A stretch of DNA of 64,000 nt from Bacteroidota bacterium (GTDB lineage Bacteria; Bacteroidota; Bacteroidia; B-17B0; Aurantibacillaceae). The stretch lies in the NCBI GenBank assembly GCA_013298715.1, contig JAAFIQ010000017.1:1-64000 (forward strand), read 5' to 3'. Both the position numbers and the translations under genes were made by a program. The stretch's first letter is position 1, and each line of letters begins with the position of its first letter. The notes beneath the pieces are model-generated. The model saw only the letters and a list, made by a program, of their open reading frames with translations, made no database searches and was not told the DNA's origin. This document shows positions 6,431 to 56,005 of the stretch, in pieces.

Positions 6431-6504
6431 CTCCCTCTCCTGGGCTCGAACCAGGGACCCCGTGATTAACAGTCACGTGCTCTAACCAGCTGAGCTAAGA
6501 AGGA
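6431..6504 (-). tRNA. tRNA-Asn (GTT)
   Basis: Read on the minus strand, the cloverleaf is complete. The seven-base acceptor stem TCCTTCT pairs with AGAGGGA, the D arm begins TAGCTCAGCTGG, the anticodon loop contains CTGTTAAT (anticodon GTT), and the T arm carries GGTTCGAGCCC. The discriminator is G; a full CCA is not encoded. Its 3' end faces the mobile region at 1-6406, a common attachment position for integrative elements. Confidence 0.95.
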
Positions 6505-7569: not shown

Positions 7570-10221
7570 ATGAAGTACTTTAAAGTTTTAGTTGTTTTTT
7601 TATTGGTTGCAGTTATTTATAGCTGCACAACAAGTCGTAACTCCGTTGTTAACCGAACATATCATAACATTACAGCTCGTTTTAATGGTTTGTATTATGC
7701 TGATGAAAGCGTGGGTGATGGCATATACAAAATTGAAAAATCGCACAAAGATAATTTTGATAAATTGTTGCCAATATACATTTACCCAAATTCTGAAAAA
7801 GCAAAAGCCACTTTTCCTGAATTTGATAGAGCAATAAAAAAATCATCGTTTTGTATTCAACGTCACACTATTAAGGACAGTAAAAAAAATGAGGTTGCAA
7901 GCGCTGGTAAATACATTGATAACTGTTGGATTGATATTGGTATTTCATGCTTTTACAAAAAAGAATATTATACTGCGCTTGAAAACCTCGAATATGTTGC
8001 CCGGACTTATACCAAAAGTAAAGATAAGTTTGTTGCAATAATGTGGATGATAAAAATCAACAACGAAATTGGTGCCGTTAGTATATCAGAGCAATACTTG
8101 AGTTTACTAAAAAACGAAAAAAATTTACCCAAGGAGGTTAAAAAGGAGTTACCAATTTTAGAGGCAGATTATTACTCAAGAAAAGGCCTAAACACAGAAT
8201 CATCGTCGCGCTTAATGGGCGTTATCAGAAATAATAATCCTTTTACTGGTATCAATCGCAAAAAAAGAGCCCGTTACAGTTTTATTGTTGCGCAATTACT
8301 TGAAGAGAATAAAGATAATAAGCGTGCGGCTCAATATTATAAAAAAACAATTGCGCTAAAACCGAATTACGATTTGGTTTTTTATAGCAAAATTAAATTA
8401 GCGCGTTTGCTCGATGTAAAAAGAAGTAGTAGTGAAAAAACTAAAAAAGATTTACTCAGAATGAGTAAAGAATTTAAAAATAACGAGTATTACGATGTTA
8501 TTTTTTATACTCTTGGTGAGATTGAAGAGAAAGAAAGAAATCAAGATAAGGCCGAATATTATTATAGAAAATCGGTAAGAACAAGTGTAAACAACCCTCA
8601 GCAAAAGGCGGCTTCATTTTTAAAATTAGGCGAAATTAATTTTGAACAAACACATTACCAGCCCGCAGAAGCCTATTATGACAGTGCTTTGGTAACCTTA
8701 CCAAAAGATCATAATCAATACAACTCTATTTTGGCACGAAAGAAAACATTAGAGGCGTTGGTAAAAGAAATAAATACCATTGCTAAAGAAGATAGCATTC
8801 AACGCATCTCTAAAATGAGTGAGGCAGATTTAAATAAATTTATCGACGAACTAATTATACGCGAAGAACGGATTGAGGCTCAAAAAGAGGCTGAAAAAAA
8901 TAGAGTAACTGATAATGGTTTTGAGTTAGCAAATAACGGATTTGGCCAACCTCAAAATGGCTCAGGGTTAAACCCTTCAACTCAAGGAGCGCTATTTTAT
9001 TTCTATAACCCACAAACTGTTGCATTTGGGATAAATGATTTTCAAAGAAAATGGGGGAATAGACCGTTAGAGGATGATTGGAGGCGATCGAATAAAGCAC
9101 TTTCGGTTGTAGAAAAAACAGAAGAAAACGATACATCAAGTAAAAAAGCAGTGGCAACCACAAAGAAAAAGGACAGAGATTCATACAAGAAAAATTTATT
9201 AAAATCAGATTCTGCAATACGAAAAAGCGACACTAAAATAATTAATGCATTTTACAGCATGGGTAATATCTATAAAGAAGAATTAAATAATACAAAAAAA
9301 GCAGTAGCAGCATTTGAGGAGTTAAATACTAGGTATCCAAAAAACAAATATTTACTAAATACCTATTATATTTTATACCGCACCAATCAGGCTGAAAAAC
9401 GAGAAGATAAAGCCGAGTACTACAAAAATAAAATTTTAACCGAGTTTCCTGAAAGTGAATTCGCCTTATTGCTTAAAAACCCAAATATGGCTGAAGAGTT
9501 AAACGCAAAGAAAAGTGAAGTGGAAAGTTTTTACATACCGGTTTACCAATCCTACATAGGTGGAGATTATACAAAGGCATTACAAGGTGCTGGCGAGGGT
9601 TTAAAAAAATATGGAAAAACTGAATTTTCTCCAAAATTTGAATTTATAAAAGCCTTAAGTTTAGGCAAAATTAAAAGTGTTGATAGTATGGAAACCGGTT
9701 TAAAATTGTTGGTTGCTAACTATCCAAAATCTGAAATAACACCGCAGGCAAACGACATACTTTTAGCAATAAAAAAACAAAAAAATCCAGAATTGTTTGC
9801 ATCTAAAGTTACAACAAAAATAAATTTAAGCGCAAAAGATACCTTCCAAGTCAACCTCGATACAACCCATTATATAATCGCTCAAATACCCGATGACCCT
9901 AAAATAGCCAACGCTTTTAAAAATAGCCTTGATGTGTTTTGTGTGAAAAACTATGCATTAAAATCATTTAACATGTCTACCACACTTTATGGCCAAGCCA
10001 AACAGTTGGTATTGCTTAAAGGCTTTAAAGATGCAAAAGAATCTAAAAAGTTTTACGATGATTTAATGGGTGATAAAGATATGTTTAAAGGAGAGGTTAA
10101 AAAAGAGGTGGTTGAAATATTCCCTATTCTTTATTCCAATTTACCTTACCTATACAAATACAAAAACCTTGAGGCTTATACCCAATTCTATAAAGATTAT
10201 TATAGCGATTTGAAGCCTTAG
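7570..10221 (+). CDS. porW: T9SS periplasmic lipoprotein PorW/SprE-like, TPR protein
   Basis: An 883-residue lipoprotein: signal peptide with lipobox VIYSC (Cys near 19), then many TPR-like helical repeats (about 120-400 and 560-760, for example AAQYYKKTIALKPNYD and AEYYYRKSVRTS). The central motif LFYFYNPQTVAFGINDFQ and WGNRPLEDDWRRSNK (about 476-512) is, as I recall it, a hallmark of the SprE/PorW family. SprE is needed for gliding and type IX secretion in Flavobacterium. Length fits the family. It is not next to the T9SS cluster at 33-46 kb, which is usual for dispersed por genes. Confidence 0.8.
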   Translation: MKYFKVLVVFLLVAVIYSCTTSRNSVVNRTYHNITARFNGLYYADESVGDGIYKIEKSHKDNFDKLLPIYIYPNSEKAKATFPEFDRAIKKSSFCIQRHTIKDSKKNEVASAGKYIDNCWIDIGISCFYKKEYYTALENLEYVARTYTKSKDKFVAIMWMIKINNEIGAVSISEQYLSLLKNEKNLPKEVKKELPILEADYYSRKGLNTESSSRLMGVIRNNNPFTGINRKKRARYSFIVAQLLEENKDNKRAAQYYKKTIALKPNYDLVFYSKIKLARLLDVKRSSSEKTKKDLLRMSKEFKNNEYYDVIFYTLGEIEEKERNQDKAEYYYRKSVRTSVNNPQQKAASFLKLGEINFEQTHYQPAEAYYDSALVTLPKDHNQYNSILARKKTLEALVKEINTIAKEDSIQRISKMSEADLNKFIDELIIREERIEAQKEAEKNRVTDNGFELANNGFGQPQNGSGLNPSTQGALFYFYNPQTVAFGINDFQRKWGNRPLEDDWRRSNKALSVVEKTEENDTSSKKAVATTKKKDRDSYKKNLLKSDSAIRKSDTKIINAFYSMGNIYKEELNNTKKAVAAFEELNTRYPKNKYLLNTYYILYRTNQAEKREDKAEYYKNKILTEFPESEFALLLKNPNMAEELNAKKSEVESFYIPVYQSYIGGDYTKALQGAGEGLKKYGKTEFSPKFEFIKALSLGKIKSVDSMETGLKLLVANYPKSEITPQANDILLAIKKQKNPELFASKVTTKINLSAKDTFQVNLDTTHYIIAQIPDDPKIANAFKNSLDVFCVKNYALKSFNMSTTLYGQAKQLVLLKGFKDAKESKKFYDDLMGDKDMFKGEVKKEVVEIFPILYSNLPYLYKYKNLEAYTQFYKDYYSDLKP

Positions 10222-54051: not shown

Positions 54052-54759
54052 ATGAATGTTGAAACTTGCTTTACCCCTCAGGGCTATCCACTTTTTCATA
54101 AACCGAATGCAATTGTGGTTGTGATAGATATTTTAAGAGCTACATCGGCAATAACCACAGCCTTTTATAATGGGGTTGCAAAAATGATTCCTGTAGCAAA
54201 TTTGGACGACGCAAAAAAGTACAAGGAGCAAGGCTTTATGGTGGCCGCCGAGAGAAATGGCGAAATTGTTGAAGGGTATGATTTAGGCAATAGTCCGTTT
54301 GGTTATATGAATTCTAAAGTAAAAAACCAAACTATTGTAATTACTACAACCAATGGAACACAAGCCATAGAAGCTGCTAAAATTGCTGACCAAGTAATTA
54401 TTGGAAGTTTTTTAAATATGGATGTGATAACTAAACACTTAAAAAACGAAAATAAAGACATTATTTTTTTATGTGCAGGCTGGAAAAATAAATTTAATTT
54501 GGAAGACACCCTTTTTGCAGGCGCCTTGGCCGAAAGTTTAGTTTTAAAGTATGGTTCCGATACGGTTTGTGATTCTACATTGGCTGCAATTGAGTTATAT
54601 AAAAATGCGAAGCATAATTTGTATGAGTTTTTAGGACGATCTTCTCACCGCAATAGGCTTGCAAAATTGGATTTAGAAAGGGACATTAAATATTGCCTTA
54701 CGCCTAATCAATGTCCGGTAATTCCAACACTTAAAGAAAATTTTTTAATAAAACTTTAA
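54052..54759 (+). CDS. comB: 2-phosphosulfolactate phosphatase family protein
   Basis: 235 residues of the ComB family: VVVIDILRATSAITTAFYNG, VAAERNGEIVEGYDLGNSPF, TTTNGTQAIEAAKIADQVII and FLCAGWKNKFNLEDTLFAG. In methanogens ComB serves coenzyme M synthesis; bacterial members may act in sulfolactate metabolism or have another phosphatase role. It stands alone on the plus strand, upstream of the triplicated hairpin region. Start at ATG 54052. Confidence 0.85.
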   Translation: MNVETCFTPQGYPLFHKPNAIVVVIDILRATSAITTAFYNGVAKMIPVANLDDAKKYKEQGFMVAAERNGEIVEGYDLGNSPFGYMNSKVKNQTIVITTTNGTQAIEAAKIADQVIIGSFLNMDVITKHLKNENKDIIFLCAGWKNKFNLEDTLFAGALAESLVLKYGSDTVCDSTLAAIELYKNAKHNLYEFLGRSSHRNRLAKLDLERDIKYCLTPNQCPVIPTLKENFLIKL

Positions 54760-54798
54760 TTTTTTTAAACCTTTTCAAAAAAACATTGTTTTATTAGT

Positions 54799-54875
54799 AA
54801 AAGAAAGCTACTCATAAAAAGCGTTATAATTTTTTTCATGGGGATGTTTAATTTTCACGCTGAGTAGTTTTCTTT
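54799..54875 (+). ncRNA. Tandem hairpin element, unit 1 (candidate novel RNA)
   Basis: AAAAGAAAGCTACTC (54799-54813) pairs with GAGTAGTTTTCTTT (54862-54875), and the inner GCGT (54821-54824) pairs with ACGC (54857-54860). Together they enclose a 30-nt loop with CATGGGGATGTTTAATTTT that is identical in units 2 and 3. A T-rich run follows. Strand is uncertain because the stem is symmetric; plus is preferred because the T-run and the loop ORF read that way. Confidence 0.6.
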
Positions 54876-54995
54876 CCTTTTTAAAACTGGTTTTGCTTAA
54901 GAGTTTAGAAGGCTTTGTTTTCGTTCATTCACACAATTATTTTAAAAAATTTATAAAAAGTTTAAACTTTTTAAAATAATGATTGTTATAATACT

Positions 54996-55070
54996 AAAGG
55001 AAATTACTCTTTAAGGCGTAATAATTTTTTTCATGGGGATGTTTAATTTTCACGCTGAGTAGTTTCCTTT
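54996..55070 (+). ncRNA. Tandem hairpin element, unit 2 (candidate novel RNA)
   Basis: AAAGGAAATTACTC (54996-55009) pairs with GAGTAGTTTCCTTT (55057-55070); inner GCGT pairs with ACGC. Relative to unit 1 the outer stem has an A:T to G:C exchange on both strands (AAAGAAA/TTTCTTT to AAAGGAA/TTCCTTT), while the loop is unchanged. Spacing from unit 1 is 197 bp. Confidence 0.6.
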
Positions 55071-55173
55071 ATCTTTTCTAATTCCAAATTTTTTATGAAT
55101 TTTATCCAAACAGAGTAAAAAATTATCTGAAAAAAATTTCTAAACTTTTTTAAAACAGTGTTGTTTTATATTT

Positions 55174-55247
55174 AAAGAAAGCTATTCGGCGATAAGTAAT
55201 AATTTTTTTCATGGGGATGTTTAATTTTTACTCTGAATAGCTTTCTT
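55174..55247 (+). ncRNA. Tandem hairpin element, unit 3 (candidate novel RNA)
   Basis: AAAGAAAGCTATTC (55174-55187) pairs with GAATAGCTTTCTT (55235-55247). ACTC:GAGT of the other units has become ATTC:GAAT, and the inner stem GCGT:ACGC has become AGT:ACT, so both stems changed in a compensatory way. The 30-nt loop is again identical. Spacing from unit 2 is 178 bp. Confidence 0.6.
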
Positions 55248-55288
55248 AATTTTCTTATGGTACTGTTTTGTTTTTGTAAAGTTTAATC

Positions 55289-55328
55289 AAAAAGCCCCGA
55301 ATTTAGTTTACTAAAATTCGGGGCTTTT
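55289..55328. terminator. Terminator of infC (bidirectional)
   Basis: AAAAGCCCCGAATTT pairs with AAATTCGGGGCTTTT around a short loop, 24 bp beyond the infC stop. A and T runs on both sides suit transcripts from either direction. Confidence 0.88.
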
Positions 55329-55351
55329 GGTTTTTATTTAATTGCTTATTA

Positions 55352-56005
55352 CTAAGTCTTGGGTTTTTTAGGCCCAATAATCATTTGCATTTTTTTACCT
55401 TCTAACAATGGCAATTGCTCGGCTTTACCAAATTCTTCTAACTCATTAGCAAAACGGAGTAATAAAATCTCACCTTGTTCTTTAAATACAATCTCTCTTC
55501 CTCTAAAAAAAACGTAGGCTTTTACTTTGCAACCTTCTTGCAAAAACTTAATTGCATGATTTTTTTTAAAATTAAAATCGTGATCATCTGTATGTGGACC
55601 AAAACGTATATCCTTAATTACAACTTTACTTGCTTTGGCTTTTACTTCTTTAGCTTTCTTTTTTTGTTCGTATAAAAACTTACCATAATCAACAATTTTG
55701 CAAACTGGCGGGTCAACGTTTGGTGCAATCTCTACTAAATCTAAACCTAATTCTCTAGCTACTTCTAAGGCCTTGGCTACGGTATAAACCCCTGGTTCCA
55801 ATCCTTCGCCTACAACACGTACTTGTTTAGCATAAATTTTTTCGTTTATGCGGTGCTGTTCTTCTTTTACACCGGGGCGTTTAAAACCCGCTTTTAATCC
55901 GCGAGGTTGTTTAAACACTGGTTTTTGTTCGCCTGGTTTTACAGGACCTGTATTGGTGTTTGATGTTGGCTTAGGGCCGTTGAATGGTTTTTTAAAGTGA
56001 TTGAT
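55352..56005 (-). CDS. infC: Translation initiation factor IF-3, ATC start
   Basis: IF-3 keeps ribosomal subunits apart and proofreads the start codon. The first AUG/GUG-type start (GTG 55918) gives 188 residues, but the frame is open upstream with no ATG up to ATC 56005, which sits 4 nt after a perfect GGAGGT. I therefore call the ATC start (217 residues, N-terminal extension [16 protein letters not shown]). A non-canonical start is the classic self-regulation device of infC. Core motifs: [40 protein letters not shown] and the C-terminal domain [20 protein letters not shown]. It follows thrS by 26 bp. Confidence 0.9.

Follow-up and report, generated by a model that had tools for sequence, protein, structure and literature searches.

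The interval between comB and infC in the window (the whole stretch of DNA that was analysed, 64,000 nucleotides of a Bacteroidota contig) contains three copies of a 121-nt repeat, each of which folds into a long hairpin around an identical 30-nt loop, and the core of this loop is also found on differing stems in two further genomes of the same family. The hairpins very probably represent a real small-RNA family, one that is unlisted in Rfam, is narrow in its distribution and shows an unusually clear-cut division between a fixed loop and differing stems. Read as its reverse complement, the loop core gives AAACATCCCCATGAAAAAA, which has the form of an 'ATG AAA AAA' translation start, and the three units are tentatively read, at somewhat less than an even chance, as paralogous sRNAs in tandem that would use this loop to pair with the starts of messages. 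In Bacteroidota only a small number of base-pairing sRNAs are understood.

The three copies are located in register at 54760-54880, 54955-55075 and 55133-55253, with start-to-start distances of 195 and 178, and all of them contain the 30-mer ATAATTTTTTTCATGGGGATGTTTAATTTT (Table 1). When the 4.0 Mb genome of the window (G000) was searched with CATGGGGATGTTTAATTTT, allowing up to two mismatches, three places were found, all at this locus.

Table 1. Features of the comB-infC interval and its neighbours (positions in the window)
Feature	Position	Strand	Details
Unit 1 hairpin	54800-54875	+	outer stem 54800-54813 with 54862-54875; inner stem 54821-54824 with 54857-54860; -22.9 kcal/mol, z -5.43
Unit 2 hairpin	54996-55070	+	outer stem 54996-55009 with 55057-55070; -24.1 kcal/mol, z -5.29
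Unit 3 hairpin	55174-55248	+	outer stem 55174-55187 with 55235-55248, outermost pair broken; -24 kcal/mol, z -4.87
Invariant 30-nt loop, copy 1	54826-54855	+	core common to G023 and G036; core is the complement of the translation start AAACATCCCCATGAAAAAA
Invariant 30-nt loop, copy 2	55021-55050	+	sequence identity
Invariant 30-nt loop, copy 3	55199-55228	+	sequence identity
A/T-rich repeated segment 5' of unit 1, possible promoter	54760-54799	+	within 121-nt repeat
A/T-rich repeated segment 5' of unit 2, possible promoter	54955-54995	+	within repeat
A/T-rich repeated segment 5' of unit 3, possible promoter	55133-55173	+	within repeat
comB-like gene (2-phosphosulpholactate phosphatase), upstream neighbour	54052-54759	+	Pfam PF04029
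infC (translation initiation factor IF-3), convergent neighbour	55352-55918	-	Pfam PF05198/PF00707

Each unit forms an outer stem of 14 pairs and an inner stem of 4 pairs around the 30-mer, and for each unit none of 200 dinucleotide shuffles folded as well. In the ungapped 121-nt register the loop columns are invariant in 30 of 30 cases compared with 34 of 91 elsewhere (Fisher p about 1e-10, a value that serves as a guide only, since the columns depend on one another and unit 1 is off by one base over a portion of its 5' arm). Across the 14 outer and 4 inner pairs of the three units 96.3% of the stem cells pair, and double-sided changes are seen in 4 of the 18 stem pairs (alignment columns 9/76, 12/73, 16/69 and 27/64), which points to pairing; when the arms were slid by -3 to +3 as a control, 43-50% of the cells paired and no double-sided changes were found. 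The covariation statistics are modest for a set of three sequences: the observed share of paired cells, the double-sided changes and the covariation score were reached by 13 of 500 shuffles, and the observed number of pair types by 105 of 500. The folding models leave the core less paired than the remainder of each hairpin (mean unpaired 0.57-0.65 vs 0.27-0.40), with the CAU and AUG of the loop mostly paired. The first-pass annotation had described three tandem hairpins with a fixed 30-nt loop, and this is confirmed by the register, the identical 30-mer, the fold z-scores and the slid-arm control; the paired stem changes that it reported between units are also present as claimed, except that unit 3 has one broken pair in each helix.

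The exact 19-nt core TTTTTTCATGGGGATGTTT occurs in six hairpins, three in the window, two in genome G023 (contig C51, 139 nt apart) and one in genome G036 (contig C57), and these are the only exact core matches from a search that allowed up to two mismatches. A wide conservation of the hairpin was not supported, the exact core being carried by 3 of 87 genomes of the family. The three hairpins of the relatives fold with z-scores of -3.17, -3.99 and -4.60 (0 of 200 shuffles as good), and across species the stems do not evidently align, as judged by inspection and not by a formal test, while the core is identical. The earlier claim of a structured RNA with a fixed loop is supported by the folding and the double-sided changes in the window and more strongly by these three additional hairpins, and a loop that is kept on a stem that differs makes the functional residues unusually plain.

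Broader searches gave many matches but no further member. With an E-value limit of 0.1, BLAST with the whole unit had hits in 46 of 60 genomes, the majority of them short and A/T-rich, and among the loci read no genome held up besides G023 and G036. A sequence-only model (R1), with a limit of 0.05, hit 35 of the 40 genus genomes, mostly weakly, and no further hairpin of the kind was found among 20 of its weaker matches; nor did any of the inexact core places that were inspected (genus and class loci and 20 model hits) resemble the hairpin. A class-wide search with one mismatch allowed gave matches in 47 of 395 genomes, and a sample of 28 of these places comprised 13 instances of the sequence WxFHGDVFD, which we take to be an LpxH-type motif, 10 starts of ORFs (at least 60 aa) on the other strand and 5 that were neither. 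The exact 20-mer was found 29 times on 28 stretches in a collection of 84,980 species, with 15 matches in WxFHGDVFD, 6 at such ORF starts and 8 others, three of the latter being the hairpins in JAFDYB010000054.1 and JADBXZ010000025.1, from the MAGs behind G023 and G036. None of the remaining stretches carries this hairpin according to stem score and inspection by eye, and two of them carry a different one (see below).

The preferred reading, sRNAs that pair with translation starts, may be put as follows. Three tandem gene copies on the + strand would each give an RNA of ~75-90 nt consisting of one long hairpin, whose outer stem and U-rich 3' flank would serve as an intrinsic terminator. The functional part would be the fixed loop, U6-CAUGGGGAUG-UUU, partly opened by a stem of indifferent sequence, and this loop would act in trans by pairing around the start codon (CAUCCCC-AUG-AAAAAA), so that ribosome loading is blocked; more copies would mean a higher dose. 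Transcription of the units, its termination and repression by the loop are predictions from sequence, as are the candidate targets, the best of which in the window genome are the genes for DoxX and a CarbopepD_reg_2 protein. Bacteroidota are described as generally being without Shine-Dalgarno sequences (PMC3155529, PMC6847099), and Bacteroides as being without classical RNA chaperones (PMC11697453).

When the window genome was searched for CATCCCCATGAAA with at most one mismatch, four places outside the loops were found, compared with two for a reversed-pattern control. Two of the four start ORFs, of 146 and 278 aa and 1.9 kb apart, which encode DoxX and the CarbopepD_reg_2 protein, while the other two are not gene starts; the DoxX start, with a match of 17 nt, is the sole exact occurrence outside the loops. 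The start-codon matches expected by chance number 0.1-0.2 by a rough estimate. With predicted duplex energies of -27.1 and -23.3 kcal/mol these two rank first among 62 ORF starts, whose mean is -10.3 (sd 3.9) when the two are counted in, the set being ORFs of at least 100 aa in the window and in the stretch around DoxX (L162), some of which are not real genes. DoxX is the last gene of a bufferin-type operon (L162:4780-7300; G000:C1 308779-311299, - strand), which consists of a Cys-rich precursor-like ORF with repeated CGEKK motifs (no Pfam family), MNIO (MbnB_TglH_ChrH), DUF2063 and DoxX, a gene set of the type described in PMC12452194. Having the start-codon candidates in one genome permits a direct test.

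However, several results speak against these targets. Among 20 DoxX places in 18 genomes, CATCCCC was found near the start in one (two of the 20 gave no recognisable ORF start, and the start of L178 looks misplaced), and in G023 and G036 none of eight off-loop sites with up to one mismatch starts an ORF of more than 30 aa. The sequence CATCCCCAT is not enriched in the three carrier genomes: it was found 36 times, a figure that includes the 6 loops, and its reversed control 33 times. Of its 30 off-loop places 25 were read, and besides DoxX one in G000 (L259) sits 22 nt upstream of the ATG that opens a 77-aa ORF; no starts were seen in G023 (2 of 2 places read) or G036 (13 of 18 read); a target conserved across the three carrier genomes was not found. 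Nor is a position at an ORF start special in itself, as 10 of the 28 places in the class-wide sample have it, near matches falling often at ORF starts because ATGAAAAAA is a common start. This control means that the start position adds little, and what remains in favour of the model is the exact 17-nt match and the closeness of the two sites. It lowered our confidence in the pairing model slightly and that in the cis/trans module discussed below by a trace, and slightly raised the protein-binding and terminator readings. The suggestion that the loop pairs with ribosome-binding regions hence found weak support in the window genome, at DoxX and CarbopepD_reg_2, and was weakened by the class-wide control. 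Either the targets turn over fast or the loop does other work, such as protein binding.

The latter possibility, that the loop is bound by an RNA-binding protein or the ribosome and that the copies titrate the binder as a decoy, is less probable than the pairing model but deserves serious consideration. Every position of the core is fixed, the U-run included, several copies are present as in sponges, and neither G023 nor G036 showed a start-codon target; proteins are, moreover, well able to recognise U-runs and G-rich loops. The hairpins of CsrB/RsmY present a GGA-containing loop and are similar to those of the window in this respect. CsrA, the best-known such system, is however absent from all six genomes searched (the window genome and five relatives; PF02599 0/6, with a working control positive in 3 of 14 named genomes), which sets the units apart from CsrB/RsmY-type sponges and led to the rejection of a CsrA sponge; no candidate protein came out of this search, which covered CsrA. 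If the loop does bind a protein, it points to an RNA-binding regulator yet to be identified.

The strand and the ends of the RNA bear on both the pairing model and a third explanation, in which the units belong to the upstream genes, as elaborate terminators or as parts of their 3' UTRs, and have no role in trans. In the ten bases past each of the six hairpins, 42 of 60 are T on the + strand compared with 23 of 60 on the other, and the units of the window have an A-rich 5' arm and a T-rich 3' arm. The T-rich tails suggest a + strand RNA that is ended by the hairpin itself, as in terminator-ended sRNAs. A standard terminator scan reported none at the units, but it accepts loops of 3-8 only and is therefore blind to these hairpins. 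A plain terminator would likewise show a stem with T-rich sequence after it on the + strand, and the units are located 3' of comB in the window, of an ORF with a LysR-type HTH in G036 and of the 3-HAO gene in G023. An invariant loop of 19-30 nt and two to three copies are on the other hand unneeded for termination, the upstream genes differ and the first unit in G023 begins more than 300 nt past the gene, and we consider this explanation unlikely.

Tandem sibling sRNAs are adjacent related copies, each with a transcript of its own; adjacent related copies are present in both G000 and G023, and separate transcripts would be predicted from them. The segments upstream of the window units, proposed by the first-pass annotation as separate promoters, are indeed repeated over ~40 nt before each unit, but that they act as such is only a possibility; a scan confined to sigma-70-type promoters gave 2 sites, no more than in shuffles (mean 3.1). 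An 11-nt sequence, AACGTTCTTTA, is found ahead of both the G036 hairpin (L082 near 6485-6497) and the first hairpin of G023 (L083 near 8608-8620) and may be a shared upstream signal; it was not seen 5' of the window units.

A possible counterpart in cis was seen in Flavobacterium beibuense and F. rakeshii (L127 and L136), where the start codon of a 123-aa lipoprotein-like ORF (MKKIIP...CSSS) pairs without mismatch over about 14 bp, as an inverted repeat, with the leader of the same ORF; the leader sequence involved is CATGGGGATGTTT, which has the letters of the window loop, here in cis. One could consider a start-codon-blocking module, in which an anti-start loop of ~19 nt is selected and the hairpin is freely replaced, acting in trans on ATGAAAAAA-type starts here and in cis in the two Flavobacterium, though we regard this as unlikely. 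In genome G015 two similar gene starts on two contigs (L142 and L143; by eye MKKIFILI...) each have TATCCCCATG upstream, and the two are probably related secreted-protein genes.

The gene settings differ between the carriers. In G036 the hairpin is flanked by gmk at one end and by comB together with a 92-aa ORF at the other, and in G023 both hairpins lie between the 3-HAO gene and prs; with differing neighbour genes in the three carriers, the element is tied to no single gene. Within 700 bases 3' of comB in 38 genomes, with 3 mismatches allowed, the core was found only in G000 and G036, and no hairpin with this loop follows comB elsewhere among them. These settings could suggest a repeat or mobile element acting as DNA (a palindromic repeat or recombinase site) instead of RNA: the element of G036 occupies a comB-gmk gap that in its sister G014 is 106 bases long and holds neither hairpin nor HTH ORF, and the carriers are scattered on a comB tree, where they form no clade and need three changes, though many forks of that tree are unsupported (38 of 40 genomes, leaving out G032 and G011, whose comB match was partial). 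Recent movement would however bring the stems along, and here the stems do not evidently align between species while the core is identical. The double-sided changes indicate pairing, the loop occurs at only three places in the window genome even with two mismatches, no exact core was found in viral contigs and plasmid or phage matches cover at most 36% of a unit. A DNA-level origin is accordingly improbable, and an intergenic repeat of the usual palindromic or mobile sort, with many near-identical copies and conserved stems, was rejected, as there are three copies at one locus and stems that differ between species. The 92-aa ORF beside the hairpin of G036 (L082:6135-6413) has a LysR-type HTH domain only, and a link between the two was also discarded, the ORF having no match in G000 or G023 at E 1e-8.

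Least probable is a translated short ORF, a leader peptide beginning MGMF on the + strand, where ATGGGGATGTTT opens in all six hairpins, or MKK on the - strand, where ATGAAA is likewise found in all six, since the - strand peptides have between 3 and 24 residues and hardly resemble one another after MKK, and since the identity also takes in synonymous positions as well as the U-run that precedes the ATG.

Taken as base-pairing sRNAs, the hairpin RNAs would have their closest functional parallels in FopS and, more generally, in sibling sRNAs encoded in tandem. FopS of Bacteroides is described as a group of 14 paralogues with bands of about 65 and 70 nt that bind next to start codons (PMC11697453). 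The likeness to FopS/GibS lies in the phylum, the short length, paralogues with a shared core and action at start codons, which for the hairpins is proposed; the difference, from a comparison by description only, is that FopS has 14 members and pairs via its 5' end, whereas the hairpins are few, in tandem and have their core in the loop (PMC11697453). OmrA/OmrB, PrrF1/PrrF2 and AbcR1/2 are similarly adjacent related sRNA genes but from other phyla, and OmrA/OmrB are described as sharing their ends and not a hairpin loop (PMC4211561). The multicopy LhrC1-5 of Listeria are reported to bind mRNA by redundant sites and to impede translation (PMC4132741). The LhrC sites are CU-rich, whereas the window loop is U-rich and contains GGGG.

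No published description of this hairpin element was found among the top-ranked results of literature searches. Against Rfam 15, of which Flavo-1 is one of the families, no hairpin matched above the curated cut-off, the window giving only RNase P and two tRNAs, in agreement with the first-pass annotation, which recognised no known family. There were 15 sub-threshold Rfam matches at 54700-55400, none of them convincing, and most fell on a strong inverted repeat at 55285-55333, which has 20-nt arms that are 90% complementary, contains CCCCGAATTT and, situated between the hairpins and the convergent infC, is a probable terminator.
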